A stretch of 64,000 nt of DNA from an uncultured Dokdonia sp. (GTDB lineage Bacteria; Bacteroidota; Bacteroidia; Flavobacteriales; Flavobacteriaceae), in assembly GCF_937910895.1 (NCBI RefSeq), contig NZ_CALEMI010000031.1:1-64000 (forward strand), written 5' to 3'. Shown one piece after another: positions 1 to 12,173 of this stretch. Within the stretch, counting starts at the first letter, position 1, and each line of letters starts with the position of its first letter. The position numbers were made by a program, and so were the translations under genes. The notes beneath the pieces are model-generated. The model was not told where the DNA came from, ran no database searches, and saw only the letters and a program-made list of their open reading frames with translations.

Positions 1-97
1 CAGAATTCAAATTCATTCCTAGAGCAGCTTAGAAAAACTTATATTTAGAAAAATATTGGCAGTTTTGAGACAGACTGCCGTTATAGCCAATCTAAAA

Positions 98-586
98 ATG
101 ACCTATCCATTCGTTCCAAAATCTAATAAAAAAATAAGCTCGGGAGATTATTGGGTTACGAAACTATCTAACAAATCATATGCAGTTGGGGTTGTTATTG
201 ATGTGCCTCCATCGGATTTAAAACTGACTCGGGAAATCGTTATTGGACTTTTAGACTGGAATGGAAATGAGATTCCCAAGGAGGTGGATTTGATGAACTC
301 AAAAATTCTAAAACAGGGACATGCGCATATTAAAACTATTAGTGAATACTCAAGTGGTATAATCGGAAATATTGATTTTACAAAATCCAGTATTGAACCT
401 TTAATTTTGATTGGTTCATATGGTGCAAATAATCCGGAATGGAATCTAATGAAGGGTTATAAAATTGTTGGAGATTATAAAAAATCTGATAGAGAAAAAT
501 ACGGCAAAGCTTCATACTGGGGATATGACTATCTGAACGAAATAGCAGAAAACGTGTTTGTGCTGAAAAATAAAGACTGGCTATAA
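98..586 (+). CDS. hypothetical protein (cassette-borne; possibly immunity-like)
   Basis: ORF track 56..586; the first ATG of the frame is at 98 (track start is TTG). No confident family. Confidence 0.6.
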   Translation: MTYPFVPKSNKKISSGDYWVTKLSNKSYAVGVVIDVPPSDLKLTREIVIGLLDWNGNEIPKEVDLMNSKILKQGHAHIKTISEYSSGIIGNIDFTKSSIEPLILIGSYGANNPEWNLMKGYKIVGDYKKSDREKYGKASYWGYDYLNEIAENVFVLKNKDWL

Positions 587-774
587 CAATGCCTATAATT
601 AATACGGGTTTTGGGCTTTAAGCTAAGGTCTGTGTATATTTAGAAAGTCCGCCAAATCTTTTGGATTTGGCTTTTAAATAGAAAAATAAAAACAAACAAA
701 AAGATTCGGCTAATCGCTTAAACGGAAACAAAAGTGCACTTTTATTCCCGTACTAATCATAGCCGAGACGTTAG
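581..774. repeat. attC-like long imperfect inverted repeat (site A)
   Basis: Left arm CTATAACAATGCCTATAATTAATACGGG (581-608) pairs with right arm CCCGTACTAATCATAGCCGAGACGTTAG (747-774). Internal mini-hairpin GCCAAATC-TTTTG-GATTTGGC. Lies between two same-strand genes. Confidence 0.6.
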
Positions 775-799
775 CAATAATTATGAAAACAAACCGTAG

Positions 800-2572
800 A
801 TGACACAAAATCCTAAAATATATAGGATTGATAAAACACATCGACTTTTAAAAAAGTTGCCGACTTGTGAACTAATTATTGAAAAAATAATCAATACTTC
901 ATTTTCAAAATTAGGTATCAAAGGAACTTTCAACTCTGCTACTTTAAAACAAATCACCAAAGAAGAAATTACATACTTCCTCTATCTTTACGACTCGGAC
1001 GAAACCGTTTCGGATTGGAAAGAATTTCTACCGACAGAATTGACAAAAAATGAGGGCTTTATTCAACAAAAATTATCTCTTGTTCTATTTGTAGAAACCG
1101 AATTCGACATCTTTTGCATAATAGGTGGCAACGCATTTCAAATAGTTCTTCCGTTCATAGATAAATCTTTTGGTTTAAACATTTACTCTAGAATTATGCA
1201 ACCCGAATTTGACGAGATTGCATCAATAAAATCAAGAGGAATAACTGGTTCTAGAGCTGGTTTAAGTGAACAATTTAGAGATAATTATAAAATTATCGAT
1301 TACATAAAATTTGGAAAGGTAACTCAAGAAATACACTTAAAATTAAGCCAAGAAACTACTGATTTACATTTTAGCTTTCTTAAAAATAAGGACAACGACA
1401 GAATTCAGATTTATGTTAGTAAAGCTTTCAAGATTAAAAAAAATGTAGATTTTGATGAACTACATCAAGTCATAAAGGAACTAGTTGTAATATCTGAACT
1501 TGCACCTTCAGATTATCTAGATTCGTACAAGGAAATTACAGACAGAAATTTAACTGATAATATTCTTCATCAAGAATTAATCACTCATTTATTCAATGAT
1601 ACCGAGAATCTTGGACGAAGGATATCAAACGCTCACAAATCTTTTCAACACGACTTTTGTAATCCAAATAACATTGAAAAATTCTATGAGGCTGACGAAT
1701 TTAGACTAAAAGAAAAAACTGAAAACAATGGGTATACGGTTTTTAAAATAGTTTACGATAGAAATGAAATCTATGACGCAGTTTTAACACGAGCAGTAGA
1801 ACGTTTTGGAGTTAACGACCGATTCAATTTTATGAATTTCGTTAGGAGTGTTTATGTAACTTGTTATCAAGATGGTAAACATTCAATAGGCTCAGGATTT
1901 TTATTTCATATTTCAACAGAATTTCCATACGATGGAACACCAATTTTTCTAGTAGACACAAAATGGTATAGACTTCAAGATACATTTGTAGAAGATTTAA
2001 AAACCAACACATCACACGTATTAAGAACTTACAAAGCACCAAAGAATATATTATCGGAACCTTGGGATAAGAATTTAATACGCAGAGAAGGAGATTATAA
2101 TTTATTGTATAATAGTAAGCAGAATTATATAGTAATTGACACCATAATTGCAGACGGACTGGAATTATGTGATATATTATATTACGATAACAATAACATT
2201 TATTTAATTCACGTAAAATATGGATTTCAATCTAAAATACGTGAATTGACAAATCAAATTACAATTTCAGCAAGACGTTTAAGAGAAACTTTAGGAACAA
2301 AGAAAAAGCCTCTGCTCGAAAAAATATACAATAGCTTAATTGAGAAAAAACATAATATTGACAATTTAACATTAGATGAATTCAAATCCCTTTTTGAAAA
2401 GAGAATTACATTCGTTTTGGCTTTTAGTTCACATTTGAATTCCGACCTAATTGTTGAAAATAATATAGAAAAATATTCGTCTAACATCGCAAGGTATTCA
2501 TTAATCCAGTGTTCTAGTGAAATGAGGGCATATTACTACGACTTACTGAATTATCAAATACCGAGAAAATAA
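800..2572 (+). CDS. DUF6119/TIGR04141-like sporadically distributed protein
   Basis: 590-aa ORF; the opening IYRIDKTHRLLKKL and overall layout resemble TIGR04141 proteins. Family recognised from memory. Confidence 0.55.
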   Translation: MTQNPKIYRIDKTHRLLKKLPTCELIIEKIINTSFSKLGIKGTFNSATLKQITKEEITYFLYLYDSDETVSDWKEFLPTELTKNEGFIQQKLSLVLFVETEFDIFCIIGGNAFQIVLPFIDKSFGLNIYSRIMQPEFDEIASIKSRGITGSRAGLSEQFRDNYKIIDYIKFGKVTQEIHLKLSQETTDLHFSFLKNKDNDRIQIYVSKAFKIKKNVDFDELHQVIKELVVISELAPSDYLDSYKEITDRNLTDNILHQELITHLFNDTENLGRRISNAHKSFQHDFCNPNNIEKFYEADEFRLKEKTENNGYTVFKIVYDRNEIYDAVLTRAVERFGVNDRFNFMNFVRSVYVTCYQDGKHSIGSGFLFHISTEFPYDGTPIFLVDTKWYRLQDTFVEDLKTNTSHVLRTYKAPKNILSEPWDKNLIRREGDYNLLYNSKQNYIVIDTIIADGLELCDILYYDNNNIYLIHVKYGFQSKIRELTNQITISARRLRETLGTKKKPLLEKIYNSLIEKKHNIDNLTLDEFKSLFEKRITFVLAFSSHLNSDLIVENNIEKYSSNIARYSLIQCSSEMRAYYYDLLNYQIPRK

Positions 2573-2836
2573 CTATTGCTAATAACTAAGTCTTCGGACT
2601 GTGCGTAGCACAAAGTCTGAAGATAGTGTTGACTAAACCGTATGCAGCTACTATGGGTTTTGCGTGAGATATATGGTGTGATTTTATAGGTGAGTAGACA
2701 CCTATTTTAGGAAGATATGCGATACGATGAGGTGCTTTTAGCTCCTCTGTTCTGTTTGTTAGATGGTCTTTAGAGCATTTTAATATACTTGTTTTTAGTT
2801 TGCTGAAATTTGGACATAGATTACCCTTTACGTCTT

Positions 2837-3969
2837 TTACGCTTGTTTTGTTTTTTGTACATTGTTTTGTTTGGCTAGTTGTTCTATCCATCGTTTGGGA
2901 GGGCCTCTATTATCAAAAGTACAAAGCGTAACTAGCCTTCCTTTCTTACAAGATGGGCAAACTAAATGAAGGGATTCTTTTTTCTTTTTTAGCATCACTT
3001 TACCTAGTTGATCTTTCAAGGAGCATAGATATTTTGCTTTGCCTGTACTACTCAAAAATCCATAATGTCGTATGCGTACAAATCCTTTGGGTAAGATATG
3101 CATGGCAAAACGACGAATAAACTCATTGGCCTCTAGGGTGAGTATTTCTTGCTTACCATCCTTTTTGTAATTCTTAGTCTTAAAAGACACTTGAGATTCT
3201 GCTACTCTTACAATGCGATGGTTAGAAATAGCTACTTTATGAGTATATCTACCCAAGTATTCTACCACCGAACTTGCACTACCAAAAGGTTTCTTTGCAT
3301 ACACCACCCAATCTTTAGAAAACAAAGAGTCAAAAAGAGATGTATCTTTAATATCCTGCTTTCTCAGAGTAGCCACATACCTGGCTCTAAACACCTTGCT
3401 AAGTTCTTTGACAGGAAACAAAAATTGTTCTTACCTCTAGCATTTTTCCACTTCCCTTCTGTATCTACTCCTCCACAAGCTATAATACAATGCAAATGGG
3501 GATGTAAACTTAGATTTTGACCCCAAGTATGCAGTATAGCAATCATGCCAGGAGTAGCTCCCAAAAAACTTGGGTTAGCTCCAAAACTCTTAATCACAGA
3601 CCAAGCAGTCTTAAATAAAGTAGTGTACACCAACTTGGGTTTCTTTAAAGCCAAAGGATGAAGCTCACTAGGTAAGGTAAAGACCAAATGATAATACCCC
3701 ACAGGCAATAGATCTGATTCTCTAGCTTGTATCCATTGCTCTCGTTTATGCCCCTGACATTTAGGACAATGCCTGTTACGACAAGAGTTATAACTCAAAT
3801 GTAATTTGCCACAAGTAAGGTCATTACATCGATCAATGTGTCCTCCCATCGCAGCTGTCCTGCATCTACTCAACGCAAAAAGGGTGCGAGACTGCCAAGC
3901 ATTGAATCCTTTGTTTATGTAAGGGTAATGATCTCTTAATAGCAAACCCAGATCATACCTAGCCTTCAA
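2837..3969 (-). pseudogene. IS91 family transposase, split by a frameshift near 3421
   Basis: ORFs 3364..3969 and 2837..3421 are N- and C-terminal parts of one protein (CRNRHCPKCQ; HTWGQNLSLHPHLHCI; YLGRYTHKVAISNHRI). Adding one T to the T5 run in GGTAAGAACAATTTTTGTTTCC would join them. Confidence 0.8.
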
Positions 3970-4742
3970 GAGAGTGTATCTATACCATAAATCCTATCTA
4001 ATGGAGAAAAAGCCTTCTCTTTGCCCAACTGACTCACATGAAGATAAATCATAGTCGTCTCGATAGCTGCGTGACCTAATAACTCTTTAAGGGAAACAAT
4101 ATCCAAGCCTTGTTCCAATAAATGGGTAGCATAACTATGACGAAGGCTATGGGTAGTGATTGCCTTATTGATACTACTAAGTTTTCTTGTCGTCTTTATA
4201 ACCCATTGAACGCCACTCTCTGAATAAGGAAGTAAATTTCCCTGTCCATCTTTACGATAAAAAAGCCAGCGCTTAGGTTGCTCCACTCCTAAGTATATCT
4301 TAAGCCCCTTGCATAATAATACACCTAATGGAACATACCGATCTTTACGATCTTTACCTTGACGGATGTGAAGCATCTTTCTGTACAAATCAATATCCTG
4401 AATATCAATATTCAAGAGTTCAAACCGTCGTAATCCACAACCATAGAGCAAGCCAATAATCAAACGGTGTTTGAGAAGTTTAGGGGTAGAGAGAAAACGT
4501 TTTATCGCCTCTTGAGAAAGTACAACAGGTAATTTTTTAGAACGTTCTATTTGAGGAAGACTAATATGCTTGTCTACAATACCCAAAAGCTTATAAAGCG
4601 ACCTAAGACCATAAACAGTATGTTTAAAGAAACTCTCTGATGGGGTTTTATGTTTGTTTTTAACATCGTGGGGATAGTCAAGTACTTGTTCAGTATCTAA
4701 TTCGCTAGGACAACACTTAAAGTGTAATGCCATATGAGCCAA
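3966..4742 (-). CDS. tyrosine recombinase/integrase (N-terminus probably longer or frameshifted)
   Basis: GCGLRRFELL, HSLRHSYATHLLEQGLD, LLGHAAIETTMIYLHVS match the R...HxxR...H/W...Y pattern. The open frame continues upstream as KSSTLIERACIEVSGFNSSYYKLKRHYELAGKSDSTVINYGRCLAH. Confidence 0.8.
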   Translation of the reverse strand: MAHMALHFKCCPSELDTEQVLDYPHDVKNKHKTPSESFFKHTVYGLRSLYKLLGIVDKHISLPQIERSKKLPVVLSQEAIKRFLSTPKLLKHRLIIGLLYGCGLRRFELLNIDIQDIDLYRKMLHIRQGKDRKDRYVPLGVLLCKGLKIYLGVEQPKRWLFYRKDGQGNLLPYSESGVQWVIKTTRKLSSINKAITTHSLRHSYATHLLEQGLDIVSLKELLGHAAIETTMIYLHVSQLGKEKAFSPLDRIYGIDTLS

Positions 4743-4960
4743 ACAACGACCGTAGTTTATAACTGTACTATCGCTTTTGCCTGCTAGTTCATAATGACGT
4801 TTAAGTTTGTAATAGGAGCTATTAAATCCAGATACTTCAATACAGGCACGTTCAATGAGGGTACTACTTTTTTCATAATAGTGATTTTAATAATGAATAC
4901 TTAAAGTAAGGTTTATTTGGATAACTTTGTAAAAGCTACCGACCTTGGGAGGTTTAGTTC

Positions 4961-5090
4961 AACAACGGCTATAATTCAGCGTGGCTTATGAACTATCTTG
5001 AAAAATTTATTACTTTAACAAACCTGATTTCTATGCGGACAAATCCTGCGGATTTATCCACGCCGAAATCATAGCCAAACACGTTGTACA
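4961..5090. repeat. attC-like long imperfect inverted repeat (site C)
   Basis: Left AACAACGGCTATAATTCAGCGTGG (4961-4984) pairs with right CCACGCCGAAATCATAGCCAAACACGTTGTACA (5058-5090). Internal mini-hairpin AAATCC-TGC-GGATTT. Confidence 0.6.
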
Positions 5091-5113
5091 CAAGCTGAAT
5101 CCAGCCGCACAGT

Positions 5114-5178
5114 CAAGCACATTTCATTTTTTTCGTGCCTCAAAAAATAAAAAGAGCTTGCCTTACCCCAACGCTGAT
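5114..5178. repeat. hairpin-forming direct repeat, copy 1, flanking the R-M cassette
   Basis: CAAGCACATTTCATTTTTTTCGTGCCTCAAAAAATAAAAAGAGCTT...CCAACGCTGAT; partner of 9344-9406. Confidence 0.65.
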
Positions 5179-5286
5179 AATAAGTTTTATAAAGATGATT
5201 TTTATATGTCAAAAAAATTGTTTACAGACTGAGGAATATATAACTTTGCCAAAATTGGGTAAAACAATAAAAAGTATAATAAACTA

Positions 5287-5610
5287 ATGGCAAGTTTCGG
5301 AAACTACATAAAAACTCACCGAGAAGAAAAAGGCTGGAGTCAGACTGAATTCGGAGCGAAAGTCAAAATTAATACACCTGCTGTTAGTAAAATTGAGAAT
5401 GACCATAAAAAGTTTCCAGTTGGCAAATTAAAATTACTCGCCCAATTATTTGAACTAGATTACAACCAAGTTAAAGACTTGTATTTTGCAGACAAATTTG
5501 CAAAAGAAGCTTTTGAATATAAATGTTCTGATAAAATTTTTAAAGTTGCAGAAGACCAATCAACTTATATCAAAGCAATAAACGCAAAACAAGGAAAATT
5601 AAAATTCTAA
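5287..5610 (+). CDS. XRE-family HTH regulator, probable R-M controller
   Basis: FGNYIKTHREEKGWSQTEFGAKVKINTPAVSKIENDHKKFPVGKL is an HTH_3 pattern; sits 5 bp upstream of the R-M gene. Confidence 0.85.
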   Translation: MASFGNYIKTHREEKGWSQTEFGAKVKINTPAVSKIENDHKKFPVGKLKLLAQLFELDYNQVKDLYFADKFAKEAFEYKCSDKIFKVAEDQSTYIKAINAKQGKLKF

Positions 5611-5615
5611 TCGAG

Positions 5616-8600
5616 ATGGATACAAAAAAACTCATACAAGTATTAGGATTTATACCTAAAGAAAATACTTCTGGAATTTTTCATAAAAACTATAACGGAT
5701 ATTCTATTGAAATTGATTTTGAAAAACAACAATTTGATTTCGGAAGTAAAATAATTGGAGGAAGAACAACAACTCAAAATTTTTCACAAACTGAAAATTG
5801 GGTTGTTTTAGAATGTATAGACAGATTACTAGAAAAAGGTTATAAACCAGAAAATATAATCTTAGAAAAAAAATACACAGTCGGACACGGAGCAAGCGGT
5901 GGTTGGCTAGATATTCTTGTTACTCGTAAAGATGGCTCTGCCTATTTAATGATAGAATGTAAGACTTGGGGAAAAGAATTTGAAAAAGAGTTTAAAAAAA
6001 CCGAAACAAATGGCGGTCAGTTAATGACCTATTTTCAACAAGACAAGTCTGCTGATATTTTGATGCTATATGCTTCTAAACTGGACAAAAATAAAATTCA
6101 ATTTAAAAATGAAATCATAAAAATTGAGGAACATTACAGACAAGCTGGAAATGTAGAAGATGTTTATGATAGATGGAATAAAGTAACGAATACCAACGGA
6201 ATATTTGACGATTGGGTAAAACCTTATTTGTTTGAAAGTAAGAAACTAACCAAAAAGGATTTAAAACCGTTAAACGAAGAAGATAGCAAAAAAATATTTC
6301 ACGAATTTTTATCTATTCTTAGAAAGCATTCTGTTTCAGACAAACCAAACGCATTTAATAAGATTTTTAATCTTTTTCTCGCTAAAATATTTGATGAAAA
6401 AAAGAGGGATGACAAGGAACTTGATTTTCAATGGAAAGAACATAAAGACAATGCAGTTGATTTTCAAATCAGACTTATAAACCTATACAAATCTGGGATG
6501 TATGACTTTTTGAAAAAAGAAGTTAGAGGAATTTCGGATGATATGTTTAGTTATAAAACTCAAAAAGAATTAGAAGAAAAAAAGAAACATATTTTATTAT
6601 TCAATAAGGTTTACGATATAAAAGATGTTTTTGATGAAGAAACTTTTGAGGATAATCAAAAAGTATTAAAAGAAGTAGTTCAATTACTTCAAAAGTTTCA
6701 AATTCGTTATCCTAGAAAACAACAACATTTAAGTGATTTCTTTGAACGTCTTTTAACAACTGGTTTAAAACAAGAAGCTGGTCAGTTTTTTACGCCACCA
6801 CCAATTACACGTTTCATAGTTCGCTCATTACCTATTTCTCAATACATAAAGAAACAGTTAAACCAATCAATTCCAGAACTTCCTGCTGTAATTGATTATA
6901 GTGTTGGTAGTGGTCACTTCTTAACCGAAGTAATGGAAGAATACCAACGTGTTATTGAAAATGACATTGATACCTCAAAGTTAGAAACTGATGATGCCGA
7001 AACAAACGTAAATGCTTGGAGAATTAACAAATACGACTGGGCAAGTAAATATGTGTATGGTATAGAAAAAGATTATCGTTTAGTAAAAGTTGCAAAAGTT
7101 GGTTGTTATTTTTACGGAGATGGTTTAGCACAAGTTATTCACGGAGATGGTTTGGATAGTTTTAAACATTCCAAAAGTTACAGAGGGCTTTTAAAGAAAA
7201 ATGCAGAAAAACCTCAATTTTCGTTTATTGTTTCTAATCCGCCATATTCTGTAAGTTCTTTTAAAGGTGATTTGAAAAACGCTTCTGCTAATCAAGATTT
7301 TAAATTGTTTGACAGCCTAAGCGATAGAAGTTCTGAAATAGAATGTTTGTTTATTGAACGAACTAAACAATTACTAAAAACAGACGGAATTGCAGCTATA
7401 ATATTACCAAGTTCTATTTTAAGTAATTCGGGTTTGTATTCACAAGCAAGAGAGATTATTTTAAAAGCTTTTGATATTATAGCCATTACAGAACTAGGCT
7501 CTGGTACTTTTATGGCAACTGGCACAAATACAGTTACTTTATTTTTAAAACGTAGAGAAGATACAATTGCTGAACAAGTAGAAAAATCTTTAGCTACATT
7601 CTTTACTAATCTTAAAGACATTACCATAAACGGTATTGAAAAACCAATAGATAAATATGTATCTCACGTTTGGGAAAACATTTCTTTTCAAGACTATAAA
7701 ACTTTATTGAACAAAAAACCGAATGAAGCTATAAAGCAACACGAAATATATAATGAGTACAACAAAAAGATAAAAGCCAAGAGCGAAGAAAATAGATGGA
7801 GTAAAATACTAGAAATAGAAAAAGACAAATTACTTTATTTTATTCTAACATATAATCAAAAAGTTGTTTTAGTTAAAACAGGACAAAAAGCAAAAGAAAA
7901 ACAGTTTCTAGGTTATGATTTTAGTAATCGCAGAGGAAATGAAGGTATGCACCCAATAAAGCGTAGCAAAACCATTGATGAATGCACACGGCTTTATGAT
8001 ATGAAAAGTTTCACTAACGAAAATAAAGCTAGCACCTATATTTATAGAGCATTTACAGAAAGTAAGTTCGATTTAGAAATTCCCGAAACGCTTCAAAAAA
8101 GTGTGAGCTATCAAAACTTAATTGATATGCTAACATTTGACCGAGCAGATTTTGAACAAAATATTTCGCTTACGGTAAAAAAAAAAGTAAAACTTCAGAC
8201 TAAGTGGAATGTGTTCCCACTCAAAGAATTTGTTAATCTTCAAAATGGTTTTGCTTTCAAAAGTGCTGATTATGTTGAAAGTTCAAACGTTTTGAATTTT
8301 AGACAAGCAAATATTAGACTAAAAGGAGTATTAGATTTAGATTATAAAAAAACTTTTTTACCTGATAACTTTTCAGAAAAGTACAAAGATTTCATTTTAA
8401 AAGACGGAGATATTGTTATTGCAATGACTGATATGAATAGTGATTTAAATCTACTTGCAATTCCCACTATTTTTAAAAACACAAGCAAAACTACTTTTCT
8501 TTTGAACCAAAGGGTTGGTAAGTTTATTAATTTCAAACTTGATAAAATTATCCCTAGCTATCTAAATAGTATTTTAAAATCTGAAATTAGCAGAACTCAA

Positions 8601-9329
8601 CTTAGAAACTTAGGTTTTGGAAGTGTTCAATTTAATTTATCTAAAACAGATTTACTTAATTTTAAAATACCACTTCCACCGTTAAATATTCAACAAAAAA
8701 TAGTTGATGAAATTGAGGTTTTAGAAAAGCAAGAGCAAGATTTGCAAAATAAAATACTAAGGCATAAAGAACACATTAATAATTCTTTAGAAACTTTGCT
8801 TAATAAATCGACTAAGTCTGTACGATTAAGTGACACAGATATTTTTGAAACTAAAATTGGAAAAAGAGTTTTAAAAAGTGAAATAAGTAATCAAGGTAAA
8901 TATCCCGTTTATAGTGCTAATGTTTTTCAACCTTTTGGATTTATAGATAAAGAATTTTTAACCGATTTTTCAACTTCTTCGGTAGTTTGGGGAATAGATG
9001 GTGATTGGATGGTAAATGTAATTCCTGCGAATAAACCATTTTACCCAACCGACCATTGTGGTTATTTAAGAATTAAACAACCAATTGCGAAAGCTAGATA
9101 TATTGCATATTGTTTAGACAAAGAAGGACAACAAATTGGGTTTTCAAGAACAAAAAGAGCTTCAATAGATAGAATCGAAGGAATTAAAATCCCACTTCCT
9201 ACAATGACAGAACAGGAAAAAGTGGATATTGAAATAGAAAAGTTAGAGAAAGAAATTACGGAATTTGAAAAACAAATAGCTGAAATTCCAATACAGAAAG
9301 AAACCATATTGAAAAAATATTTAGAATAA
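5616..9329 (+). CDS. single-polypeptide restriction-methylation-specificity protein (Type I-like/IIG)
   Basis: 1237 aa. N-terminal WLDILV...YLMIECKTWG (PD-(D/E)XK-like), central N6-methylase motifs (YSVGSGHFL, SNPPYSV), two C-terminal specificity-like domains (WNVFPLKEFVNLQNGFAF; IGKRVLKSEISNQGKYPVYSAN). Confidence 0.85.
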   Translation: MDTKKLIQVLGFIPKENTSGIFHKNYNGYSIEIDFEKQQFDFGSKIIGGRTTTQNFSQTENWVVLECIDRLLEKGYKPENIILEKKYTVGHGASGGWLDILVTRKDGSAYLMIECKTWGKEFEKEFKKTETNGGQLMTYFQQDKSADILMLYASKLDKNKIQFKNEIIKIEEHYRQAGNVEDVYDRWNKVTNTNGIFDDWVKPYLFESKKLTKKDLKPLNEEDSKKIFHEFLSILRKHSVSDKPNAFNKIFNLFLAKIFDEKKRDDKELDFQWKEHKDNAVDFQIRLINLYKSGMYDFLKKEVRGISDDMFSYKTQKELEEKKKHILLFNKVYDIKDVFDEETFEDNQKVLKEVVQLLQKFQIRYPRKQQHLSDFFERLLTTGLKQEAGQFFTPPPITRFIVRSLPISQYIKKQLNQSIPELPAVIDYSVGSGHFLTEVMEEYQRVIENDIDTSKLETDDAETNVNAWRINKYDWASKYVYGIEKDYRLVKVAKVGCYFYGDGLAQVIHGDGLDSFKHSKSYRGLLKKNAEKPQFSFIVSNPPYSVSSFKGDLKNASANQDFKLFDSLSDRSSEIECLFIERTKQLLKTDGIAAIILPSSILSNSGLYSQAREIILKAFDIIAITELGSGTFMATGTNTVTLFLKRREDTIAEQVEKSLATFFTNLKDITINGIEKPIDKYVSHVWENISFQDYKTLLNKKPNEAIKQHEIYNEYNKKIKAKSEENRWSKILEIEKDKLLYFILTYNQKVVLVKTGQKAKEKQFLGYDFSNRRGNEGMHPIKRSKTIDECTRLYDMKSFTNENKASTYIYRAFTESKFDLEIPETLQKSVSYQNLIDMLTFDRADFEQNISLTVKKKVKLQTKWNVFPLKEFVNLQNGFAFKSADYVESSNVLNFRQANIRLKGVLDLDYKKTFLPDNFSEKYKDFILKDGDIVIAMTDMNSDLNLLAIPTIFKNTSKTTFLLNQRVGKFINFKLDKIIPSYLNSILKSEISRTQLRNLGFGSVQFNLSKTDLLNFKIPLPPLNIQQKIVDEIEVLEKQEQDLQNKILRHKEHINNSLETLLNKSTKSVRLSDTDIFETKIGKRVLKSEISNQGKYPVYSANVFQPFGFIDKEFLTDFSTSSVVWGIDGDWMVNVIPANKPFYPTDHCGYLRIKQPIAKARYIAYCLDKEGQQIGFSRTKRASIDRIEGIKIPLPTMTEQEKVDIEIEKLEKEITEFEKQIAEIPIQKETILKKYLE

Positions 9330-9343
9330 AACCAACGCAAGTT

Positions 9344-9406
9344 CAAGCACATTTAAAGTTTGCTCGTGCCTCGCAAATTTAAAAGAGCTTTCACGCCAAC
9401 GCTGAT
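9344..9406. repeat. hairpin-forming direct repeat, copy 2, flanking the R-M cassette
   Basis: CAAGCACATTTAAAGTTTGCTCGTGCCTCGCAAATTTAAAAGAGCTTTCACGCCAACGCTGAT; partner of 5114-5178. Confidence 0.65.
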
Positions 9407-9481
9407 TGACAAACTGAATGAAAAAAAGCCAGTGTACAATCGAGTAGACGGCTCCGCCCCTAATTAGGAACGGAGTGCGCC

Positions 9482-9501
9482 CCTGCCTGCCGGCAGGCAG
9501 G
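9482..9501. repeat. 20-bp perfect palindrome CCTGCCTGCCGGCAGGCAGG
   Basis: Read directly; lies between the intron domain V and domain VI sequences. Confidence 0.9.
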
Positions 9502-9963
9502 TCTCACACCACCGTACATACGGGTCTCGTATACGGCGGTTAGCAATCCATCTTTTCAATCGCTCTTTACACCAATCGAAACTATTTCCTAATTTATCAA
9601 ATGGCTACACATTTTCTAGGGAATCGATCACCCAATAACGAAAACAAATGCTCCATTCGGCATTTCAGAAAGGATTACTTTCAGTCCTTCCTCACTTGTG
9701 AGACCTATGCAGTTTTACTGCAACTCATTTCCTGTGAGTACTATGACTTCTGCTGACTTCTCCATATAGTTACGCGTAACTTTGGAGACCTCCCCAGGTA
9801 AGAACATCTTCTTTCTCTCGATCCCTGCCAAATCTACTGTTTCGGTATTCACTTAAAAAAGTGTTTCGGACGTTGCAATGATGTGCTTACTTATCCAATC
9901 TTACAGCCTCGTATACAGTTCCTGCTTGGTTTACCCTGAGCATTCTAAGATAAAAACAAATTT

Positions 9964-10941
9964 TTAAGCAGCTAATTTCACAAAAGGTTCTTCTCTTTTT
10001 GCAACGGCAAAAATCCTTAGCACAATTTTGTTGGCAACAGCATTCTTTACATTCATGTGATGTTTTCCCTCTTCAATTTTTCTTTTGTAATAGGCCTTGA
10101 TCTGGGGGTCGTGTTGTATGGCACTGATAGCTCCTTTTGTCAGCATTGCCTTCAATGATTTATCCCTTAAATAATGAGTTTTGGTTCTTCCCTTTACACT
10201 ACTTCCCGATTGGTAAGGAAAAGGAGCAAGGCCGCAGTGACAGCTGAATTTTCTAGCGTTGCTAAACTTAATGAAGTTCTCTGTCTCAACGATGCATTTT
10301 ATAGCAATTACTGGGCCCACACCAATTACCTTTGTGATCTTCTTGTAGCTGTCCTTTAGGTTCTCGTCTTGATTGATCAATTCCTGCATCTGGGCTTCAA
10401 TGTTTTTGATACTTTTCTCAATGGATTTATATTGTTTGCTTTCTTCCCTGATCAGCATTTTTACATCAACCGACTTGTTAAGTATTTCATTAGCTTTCAA
10501 ACTGTTTTGAATTTGAACAGATATTTTCACATAACGTTCTCTAGCTGTAACGAGCGCTTTAAGCGTACTCAATTTTTTTGATGGCAACTGGTAAGGAGCC
10601 AGCTTATGCTTGTTAGTAATGCTATACTCTGCAATGCGGTAAGCATCCTTAGTGTCAGTTTTGCCACGTTGAATTCCAAGAGATTTTTTGAGTTCTAAAG
10701 GATTAATAACATAGAACTGAAAATTATTTCTACTTAGACAATCTATCAAAATTGCACCATAATGCCCTGTGTGTTCTAAGGCAAATATGGCATGTTCATC
10801 AAATTTCTTAAGCCATTGATCAATGCTTTTCTTGGTATTATCAATGATCCCTCTTGATTCTACCTGAATACTTTGACTATTCAAAATACAATAATCTAGT
10901 GTGTCTTTTGAAATGTCAATACCTAAAACTAAATTTTTCAT
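9964..10941 (-). CDS. IS110 family transposase
   Basis: 325 aa. LGIDISKDTLDYCI, ALEHTGHYGAIL, KTDTKDAYRIAEYS (DEDD-type N-terminus); ITKVIGVGPVIAIKCI, FSCHCGLAPFPYQSGSSVKGRTKTHYLRDKSLKAML (transposase_20 C-terminus). Confidence 0.95.
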   Translation of the reverse strand: MKNLVLGIDISKDTLDYCILNSQSIQVESRGIIDNTKKSIDQWLKKFDEHAIFALEHTGHYGAILIDCLSRNNFQFYVINPLELKKSLGIQRGKTDTKDAYRIAEYSITNKHKLAPYQLPSKKLSTLKALVTARERYVKISVQIQNSLKANEILNKSVDVKMLIREESKQYKSIEKSIKNIEAQMQELINQDENLKDSYKKITKVIGVGPVIAIKCIVETENFIKFSNARKFSCHCGLAPFPYQSGSSVKGRTKTHYLRDKSLKAMLTKGAISAIQHDPQIKAYYKRKIEEGKHHMNVKNAVANKIVLRIFAVAKREEPFVKLAA

Positions 10942-10965
10942 AACTTTGGATTAGCTATTAAAAAC

Positions 10966-11124
10966 CTGAATAACCAATAGGTCTGTGTACTAACGCTATT
11001 AATAAGCCTACAAGCTTAACATTCTAAATGGTACCAAAACCTAAGAAGGGAAAGGACTGATGCTCAGCATAGACCATAATGTCTAAGAGTCGAAATAGTT
11101 CACCTTTTCCTTCTGGTTATTCAG
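10966..11124 (-). ncRNA. candidate IS110 bridge RNA
   Basis: Non-coding segment upstream of the transposase, bounded by a perfect 10-bp inverted repeat CTGAATAACC/GGTTATTCAG. Inner stem GAAGGAAAAGG/CCTTTCCCTTC with one mismatch. Loop segments match the element ends. Confidence 0.65.
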
Positions 11125-11440
11125 AAATTTAATATGATTAAACTTCTTGTAAATATAGAAAGCTAAACTAATAGCGAAGTCGAAGAGTCAAGTACCGAGT
11201 TTTGTATTTGCCCTCCCGCCTGCTGGCTCATACGCTAAAAATGTCTACAAGACATTTTTTTAACGCTCTGCCCTCTTCAGTCCTATCCTCACGAATAGCA
11301 ACCTTGCAGCTTACTAATGGTTCAAAGAGCCTGTCCTGAGCGATAGCCGAAGGAGTACCCCTGCCCATAAGGGACTTGTACCCTCTAAATGAATTATTTA
11401 TCTTTCGATAAATAAAAGATGCCCATGCTGGGCACACACA

Positions 11441-11571
11441 CCGTGTATAATTAATTGCTTGGTTTTAGCCAATTTACGAAAGCCCTCGCGGACTTTCTAT
11501 CTGTGAATTATTTGCTAATTTTAGTGCATAAAACAAGCAACTAATTATACACAAACACGTTATGTGCAATA
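11441..11571. repeat. attC-like long imperfect inverted repeat (site E)
   Basis: Left CCGTGTATAATTAATTGCTTGGTTTTAGCC (11441-11470) pairs with right GCATAAAACAAGCAACTAATTATACACAAACACGTTATGTGCAATA (11526-11571). Internal GAAAGCCCTCGCGGACTTTC. Confidence 0.6.
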
Positions 11572-11644
11572 ACTAAAGAATAATGCGCAGATATGATATA
11601 GAGATTGAATCCAATTAATTCATACTATAAATTAAAAATCCATT

Positions 11645-12037
11645 ATGAAATGGAAAATAATTAAAGAACGTAAAAGGGAGTACGCTGACACATCATATTA
11701 TCTAAAAGCGGAAAGAGATATCAAAGAAGGAACCCTTACCTTAGAAATTGACTGGATTGAAAATTTCATGTATGATTTATCAGTTAATTTACATACAAAA
11801 AATACGGGTCTGAAATCCATTTTCAAAAAGGTATCGAAGCGTTATATTTATGGTCATTTAGTTTCTTATAATGACCGTATTGAAAAATATGGACATCAAA
11901 TAATGAGAATTACGGATGAATCGCCTATGAACAAATTCAAAAGGCTAGACTCACTTCAAAAAGATAGTGTCTTGAATTGGAGTTTGTTAGACAAACGTAA
12001 TATAGAAATTAAAACAAAATTACCTCAGAAAATATAA
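11645..12037 (+). CDS. hypothetical protein (cassette-borne)
   Basis: 130-aa ORF between site E and a short dyad at about 12096-12133; no recognised family. Confidence 0.55.
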   Translation: MKWKIIKERKREYADTSYYLKAERDIKEGTLTLEIDWIENFMYDLSVNLHTKNTGLKSIFKKVSKRYIYGHLVSYNDRIEKYGHQIMRITDESPMNKFKRLDSLQKDSVLNWSLLDKRNIEIKTKLPQKI

Positions 12038-12173
12038 TTAGAGAAAAGTCACAAAACAAGGTGTAAAAATGCGTTAAAACATATTTTATACAAAACGTTA
12101 TACCTTTATTAAGCTGTAGTTAAAGGTTATACAAACCGAAATAGTTCTCGACTGCGCTCTAACGGACAGTGCT

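Follow-up and report, generated by a model that had tools for sequence, protein, structure and literature searches.

A decayed, integron-like gene-cassette array in a Dokdonia genome and its apparently overlooked relatives across Flavobacteriaceae

Layout of the locus

The left end of the window, by which we mean the whole 64,000-nucleotide stretch analysed, holds plus-strand genes, long imperfect dyads and several insertions (Table 1), and looks like the worn-down distal part of an integron-like gene-cassette array. The two boxes that bound cassette 1 are exact reverse complements over 10 nt, and the box pair of cassette 2 has an intact copy in an array of another genome (G040). Cassettes 2 and 3 have lost their sites, the former to the IS91-like element, whose other edge adjoins GTTC of site C, and the latter to a group II intron plus an IS110-family element; the left boxes of both lost sites are still present. 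The intron remnant matched Rfam families RF01998 and RF02001 above threshold and RF00029 under its gathering score. Its position, precisely at a cassette site's left box, is reminiscent of group IIC-attC introns (PMC7923331). Cassette 4, whose gene had no family match and for which we searched for an end box and found none, is likely the array end; past 12037 there are ordinary genes on the opposite strand.

Table 1. Coordinates of the features in the window and of related features in other loci
Feature	Position	Strand	Details
Insertion-element end AGTTTTGAGACAGACTG (IS/MITE copy)	61–77		adjoins core CCGTT of the site preceding cassette 1
Cassette 1	80–769	+	box GTTATAGCCA 80–89; end box TGGCTATAAC 578–587; site A to 769
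Cassette 1 gene	98–586	+	162 aa; weak Imm26-like match (Pfam)
attC-like site A	578–779	+	AAC 585–587, GTT 770–772; long-loop variant; R1 62.5 bits, E 2.6e-8; fold
Cassette 2	770–2582	+	box GTTAGCAATA; surviving end box TATTGCTAA 2574–2582; remaining site gone; boxes complementary
Cassette 2 gene	800–2572	+	590 aa; DUF6119/TIGR04141 (family matches)
IS91-like element	2583–4953	−	IS91 transposase 240 bits, Phage_integrase 128 bits; boundaries approximate
XerA-like tyrosine recombinase, IS91 companion	3966–4742	−	ORF inside the IS91-like element
attC-like site C	4957–5092	+	AAC 4961–4963, GTT 5083–5085; left box truncated to GTTCAAC; R1 116.5 bits, E 8.5e-19
Cassette 3	5083–9439	+	box GTTGTACACA; end-box remnant CAGTGTACAA 9430–9439; boxes complementary
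HTH gene, cassette 3	5287–5610	+	
Type IIG restriction-methylase gene, cassette 3	5616–9329	+	PADLOC REase_MTase_IIG 831 bits
Group II intron remnant	9439–9924	−	no ORF; at left box of cassette 3's lost site
IS110-family transposase gene	9964–10941	−	NF033542 197.8 bits
attC-like site E	11443–11568	+	GTGTATAATTA stem type; GTT 11559–11561; left box lost; R1 50 bits, E 7.2e-6
Cassette 4	11559–12037	+	box GTTATGTGCA; gene 11645–12037, 130 aa
IS/MITE copy, L147	near 212–236		abuts site core
IS/MITE copy, L283 (own contig C47)	about 7727–7826		abuts site core
Flank junctions, L118, L148, L147, L090; likewise L100, L155	just left of GGCTATAATT		
Zinc-ribbon-like gene, L196	1614–1973	+	
Zinc-ribbon-like gene, L195	4941–5303	−	
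Zinc-ribbon-like gene, L266, L267, L270, L271, L273, L276, L278–L280, L295, L320	upstream of integrases		

The sequence-only reading had described three long imperfect dyads and a short one at 12096–12133, separating same-strand genes from 581 onwards. The long dyads A, C and E are real and belong to one attC-like family, as judged from folding and from their recovery by the covariance model described below. Site E, described there with long arms of different sequence, is no separate kind; its stem, GTGTATAATTA/TAATTATACAC, proved to be a covarying version of the common stem (GC to TA, CG to GC). The short dyad fell away as a site, being a weak hairpin (−3 to −4 kcal/mol) with no model match and no matching box. 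The genes do lie on the plus strand, but a simple alternation of sites with whole cassettes does not hold, two sites having been replaced, and the array begins further left than 581, at box GTTATAGCCA.

A family of folded attC-like sites

Folding and reading of the window gave the outer pattern shared by the sites, YAAC-N3-GGCTATAATT ... AATCATAGCC-N5-6-GTTR. A pattern of two 10-base arms recurred in at least 116 stretches of public genomes, almost all from Flavobacteriaceae, several of which carry two or three sites in a span of 8 kb. We built a covariance model, R1, from 50 of these sites, all in other genomes. Run against the window's own genome, R1 recovered C, A and E; beyond these it matched a single site on contig C47 and hardly anything more. 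Simple right-arm patterns found only background there, window sites aside. A covariance-model scan had been proposed from the sequence alone, and it recovered the site family across Flavobacteriaceae, in 106 of the 121 sampled genomes (genera); over the phylum the count was 51 of 198 genomes. An Rfam search returned no family for the sites.

Array-site coordinates are model-based, since refinement by regular expression lost most non-consensus stems. Nearly all of the 355 sites carry YAAC (348) and GTTR (346), and only 31 fit RYYYAAC and 24 GTTRRRY, the R boxes of the IntI type. Among 282 folded sites a single bulge lay on the R′ side in 73 and on the R″ side in 3, with none in 206; the paired extrahelical bases on the ″ side that characterize IntI integrons were absent.

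The fold itself is conserved. In an alignment of 134 distinct sites (A4), 97.3% of pair cells held standard pairs and there were 431 double changes; the covariation score was reached by none of 500 shuffles, and it fell from 0.67 to about 0.1 once the partner was slid by one to three bases. When cells that are not Watson–Crick were read on the strand opposite the genes, there were 457 G.T against 13 A.C. Seeding R1 by sequence partly favoured the most frequent G.T pair; leaving out this wobble, there were still 237 G.T against 13 A.C. The excess of G.T over A.C opposite the genes indicates that the bottom-strand fold is the one kept, as it is for attC. Compensatory changes and G.T bias together show, on comparative grounds, that the bottom strand folds, and the sites match attC as R″-spacer-stem-spacer-R′ dyads with a bottom-strand fold.

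Neighbouring sites and cassettes across genomes

Each cassette of an integron array begins, at its 5′ end, with the R′ half that pairs with the R″ of its own site in the free circle, and therefore the box to the right of site n−1 should be complementary to the box to the left of site n. At least six of seven variable positions matched in 292 of 332 adjacent pairs (88%), against 2.9% for random pairs and about 3% for the two boxes of one site. The uninterrupted match was 9–10 nt long, AAC included, in 277 of 337 neighbours, and stopped at 10. A 10-nt right box (GTTRN6) that reverse-complements the next left box reads as the mark of cassettes that can be excised, with the cut at GTT.

In G040 a single strand carries 80 sites in 68 kb, and one-strand arrays are also present in G069 (85 sites) and G102 (82 sites). 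Median site spacing is 581 bp. Of 190 intervals between sites, 173 have their longest ORF on the expected strand and 17 on the opposite one. Cassette products include immunity proteins (Imm7, WapI-like), a ParE toxin and defence proteins (PD-T4-1, PifA, QatA-like), and most product families were met once. Where loci share cassettes, 10.9% of alignment ends fall within 6 nt of GTT, compared with 0.5% of random points. Cassettes are also common to different genera: Winogradskyella haliclonae (L081) and Flaviramulus basaltis (L126) share one at 88% identity over 775 bp, with the alignment stopping 1 nt from GTT in both. Cassettes thus lie in tandem and in one orientation, and the shared ones suggest that they move as units.

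The crossover core of the sites is also the insertion point of an IS or MITE whose ends read CAGACTGTCT(C/A)AAAAC, and its copy on contig C47 is a full inverted-repeat insert with CCGT on both sides; it may target the attC-like sites. The flanking sequences GTTGTGCAACAGGCACA and CAAACTTAAG abut an identical left-arm position in different genera, and their junctions suggest insertion elements targeting the sites.

A tyrosine recombinase beside the arrays

In the genomes inspected, a tyrosine recombinase lies directly upstream of the arrays and parallel to the cassettes. Its open frames span about 376–450 codons, for proteins of 376 aa or about 390–400 aa, and in the long forms about 100 N-terminal aa precede SAM-like and catalytic domains. 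This N-terminal stretch had no Pfam match and was not identified by structure comparison, in which the best fold matches, XerA and IntI, covered the core (model pTM only 0.50). Against the IntI model TIGR02249 the array integrases scored 188–213 bits, under the cut-off of 265, and the match fell into two pieces around a missing insertion; residues 179–247 of PDB 2A3V stood opposite merely about 25 residues of the array integrase. They score near the NF040815 cut-off. In an alignment, the IntI-specific insertion (about 31+12 aa in IntI1) was absent from 17 of 17 array integrases, which lack the additional IntI domain near patch III. A tree of 86 sequences recovered IntI as monophyletic (94.6/91) and separated the array integrases from both IntI and Xer; support was weak (87.4/26) for a group uniting all new integrases, the IS91 companion among them.

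An integrase of this kind (A5-type) was found in 86 of 121 Flavobacteriaceae genomes, a count that includes short forms and some partial matches. The short forms are about 280 aa long, and in another class of the phylum they lie upstream of, and divergent from, R1 arrays (for example on contig C44 of G244). Some arrays are orphaned, given that strong R1 matches are absent from 15 of the 121 genomes and the integrase from more. Across the phylum, 107 of 393 genomes had a classical IntI above cut-off, with none from the window's own family among the matches listed. Four genomes of family f24 (G236, G251, G225 and G262) have classical IntI, a short-type integrase and R1 sites together.

In the window's own genome a long form is encoded on contig C53 and a short form on C71, the IS91 companion is also present, and no IntI scored above cut-off. 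That no integrase could be recognised was a correct reading of the window only, because the host genome carries one of the array type on C53. We considered the IS91 companion as the array integrase and rejected it: it is part of the IS, the recombinase is seemingly present in many copies elsewhere, and it is distantly related to the array integrases. One genome (G101) gave many near-identical Phage_integrase matches, from IS91-like elements with an XerA-like tyrosine recombinase.

The long-A integrases and some others are preceded, at a distance of 50–110 bp, by a divergent gene of about 120–135 aa with a zinc-ribbon-like motif (C..C...GR.DKKFC...CKS.Y), possibly a regulator or accessory factor. 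The L267 copy is visible only within a longer open frame. L295, on a Persicobacter plasmid (CP012862), encodes a full-length integrase relative with 43% identity next to this gene, and no R1 site was found in the 25 kb examined.

Past the integrase stop, a box complementary to the left box of the first cassette follows within 26–111 nt in 12 of 16 loci. It comes only after 900–1400 nt in G101a and G101b, matches partially in G088, and was sought after the integrase of G102 and not found. In the long-A loci, G026 and the window's own genome, a palindrome with 10–14-bp arms, rarely or never reached in shuffles, ends 3–6 nt before GTT; the long-A locus G057a is without it, and the long-B loci have CATATAACCA|GTTG or close variants in its place. 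An attI-like site beside the integrase, where the first cassette would join, is what this arrangement points to. On C53 the order is integrase, TATAATAGCAATTGCTATTATA, ACATT, GTTGGGCATAAT and an ORF start, and then the contig ends. The window lacks an integrase. It opens with the first base of contig C31, which falls within an IS end, so C31 may be the continuation of C53.

Interpretation

The site family, its bottom-strand conservation, the box rule, the arrays, the linked integrase, the attI-like position and the presence of cassettes in different contexts are read directly from the compared genomes. We are highly confident that the best explanation is an integron-like platform of Flavobacteriaceae, with the array here decayed and its integrase on C53. 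We infer that the C53 tyrosine recombinase would join attC-like sites, acting through their folded bottom strand, to a double-stranded attI-like site that lies shortly after the recombinase gene. A cassette would consist of one gene, sometimes two, and one site; since its first 10 nt (GTTRN6) and its 3′ 10 nt ending in YAAC are reverse complements, these ends would pair as R arms in the excised circle. Crossover would take place at GTT, and new cassettes would join next to the integrase and be read in the integrase direction, with catalysis by the array enzyme, a single-strand pathway and this insertion order as the predicted steps. The core of the sequence-only reading, that cassettes are moved at folded single-stranded attC-like sites, draws strong support from the comparative data: neighbouring boxes are complementary, the stems covary with a bias for the bottom strand, cassettes common to different loci end at GTT, and the integrase has an attI-like site beside it; as a whole that reading was borne out in part.

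The array might instead be a classical IntI integron that has lost intI (a CALIN) and retains ordinary attC sites. Its general architecture agrees with attC arrays, and IntI above cut-off does occur in other classes of the phylum (among the 107 of 393 genomes given above), sometimes together with R1 sites. We regard this as improbable: arrays are frequent in the window's own family, yet no IntI scored above cut-off in the host genome, and the listed IntI matches included none of the family's genomes; a different recombinase consistently stands beside the arrays; and the R boxes are 10 nt long, rarely fit GTTRRRY, and accompany bulges that are on the R′ side or absent.

That the sites are mobile repeats, MITE-like or IS-derived, scattered between genes rather than serving in recombination would fit dispersed dyads and IS ends at site cores, but it leaves the neighbour box rule and the integrase–attI arrangement unexplained, and strict one-strand orientation with one gene per interval (173 same, 17 opposite) speaks against it; we hold it very unlikely. 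No target-site duplications flanking whole sites were noticed, an incidental observation. We give hardly any credence to bidirectional terminators or conserved RNA structures at gene 3′ ends: the sites do come after genes and form strong hairpins, but the conserved fold is on the strand opposite the genes, the sites have no Rfam family, and boxes link neighbouring sites.

With the integron-like platform as the preferred reading, these arrays probably represent a second integron-type gene-capture lineage in Bacteroidota, with recombinases that lack the IntI domain and a differently built folded site, widespread in Flavobacteriaceae and missed by software based on IntI and attC. Common ancestry with the IntI single-strand-site systems and a parallel origin are both compatible with such a lineage.

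Relation to known systems

Published surveys describe integrons as rare in Bacteroidetes, where integrases without cassettes were reported earlier and then one complete integron in Salinibacter (PMC9024848). Our literature search found no description of the present arrays, which is weak evidence as most subscription papers and preprints lay outside it. Arrays of this kind occur in most of the marine Flavobacteriaceae that were sampled, beside a recombinase that does not belong to the known integron-integrase family, so that a widespread means of gene capture appears to have gone unnoticed. The R1 search model now allows such arrays to be annotated. If the arrays function as proposed, large cassette reservoirs exist, or once existed, in most of the genera sampled from a major marine family, with toxin–immunity and anti-phage genes among the cassettes. 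The IntI-specific domain and the paired extrahelical bases are held to be central to attC recognition; they would then not be its sole solution, and the question of recognition would become testable by swapping enzymes and sites.

The system resembles integrons (IntI1, VchIntIA/2A3V) and CALINs in its tandem same-strand single-gene cassettes, in its imperfect AAC...GTT dyads with an asymmetric unpaired spacer and a conserved bottom-strand fold, in the complementarity between R′ of one site and R″ of the site that follows, in an integrase gene with an adjacent attI-like site, and in cassette genes that are mostly of unknown function or encode toxin/immunity and defence proteins. It differs in that the array integrase is without the IntI-specific insertion, falls outside the IntI clade and has in its long forms the N-terminal domain of about 100 aa; the long-type integrase runs parallel to the array, and stem sequence is conserved across genera. 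The boxes here are GTTRN6 (10 nt), whereas IntI boxes are GTTRRRY, and the site has one bulged T, on the R′ side, or no bulge at all, whereas attC has two extrahelical bases on the ″ side (PMC3053210). We have not classed the system as an IntI integron because three defining features are absent, namely the IntI domain, GTTRRRY/RYYYAAC boxes and paired extrahelical bases. Group II introns are known from attC sites and integrons, as group IIC-attC introns and as IIB introns in integrons (PMC7923331), and as with attC-targeting introns and IS, the window has a group II intron at a left box and site cores adjoin IS of several types. XerA and archaeal Xer (NF040815; PDB 5HXY, 4A8E) are the nearest enzymes to the array integrase, both in NCBIfam score and in structure, and share a common core with it; Xer acts on one chromosomal dif site, whereas the array system has cassette arrays and an N-terminal domain.
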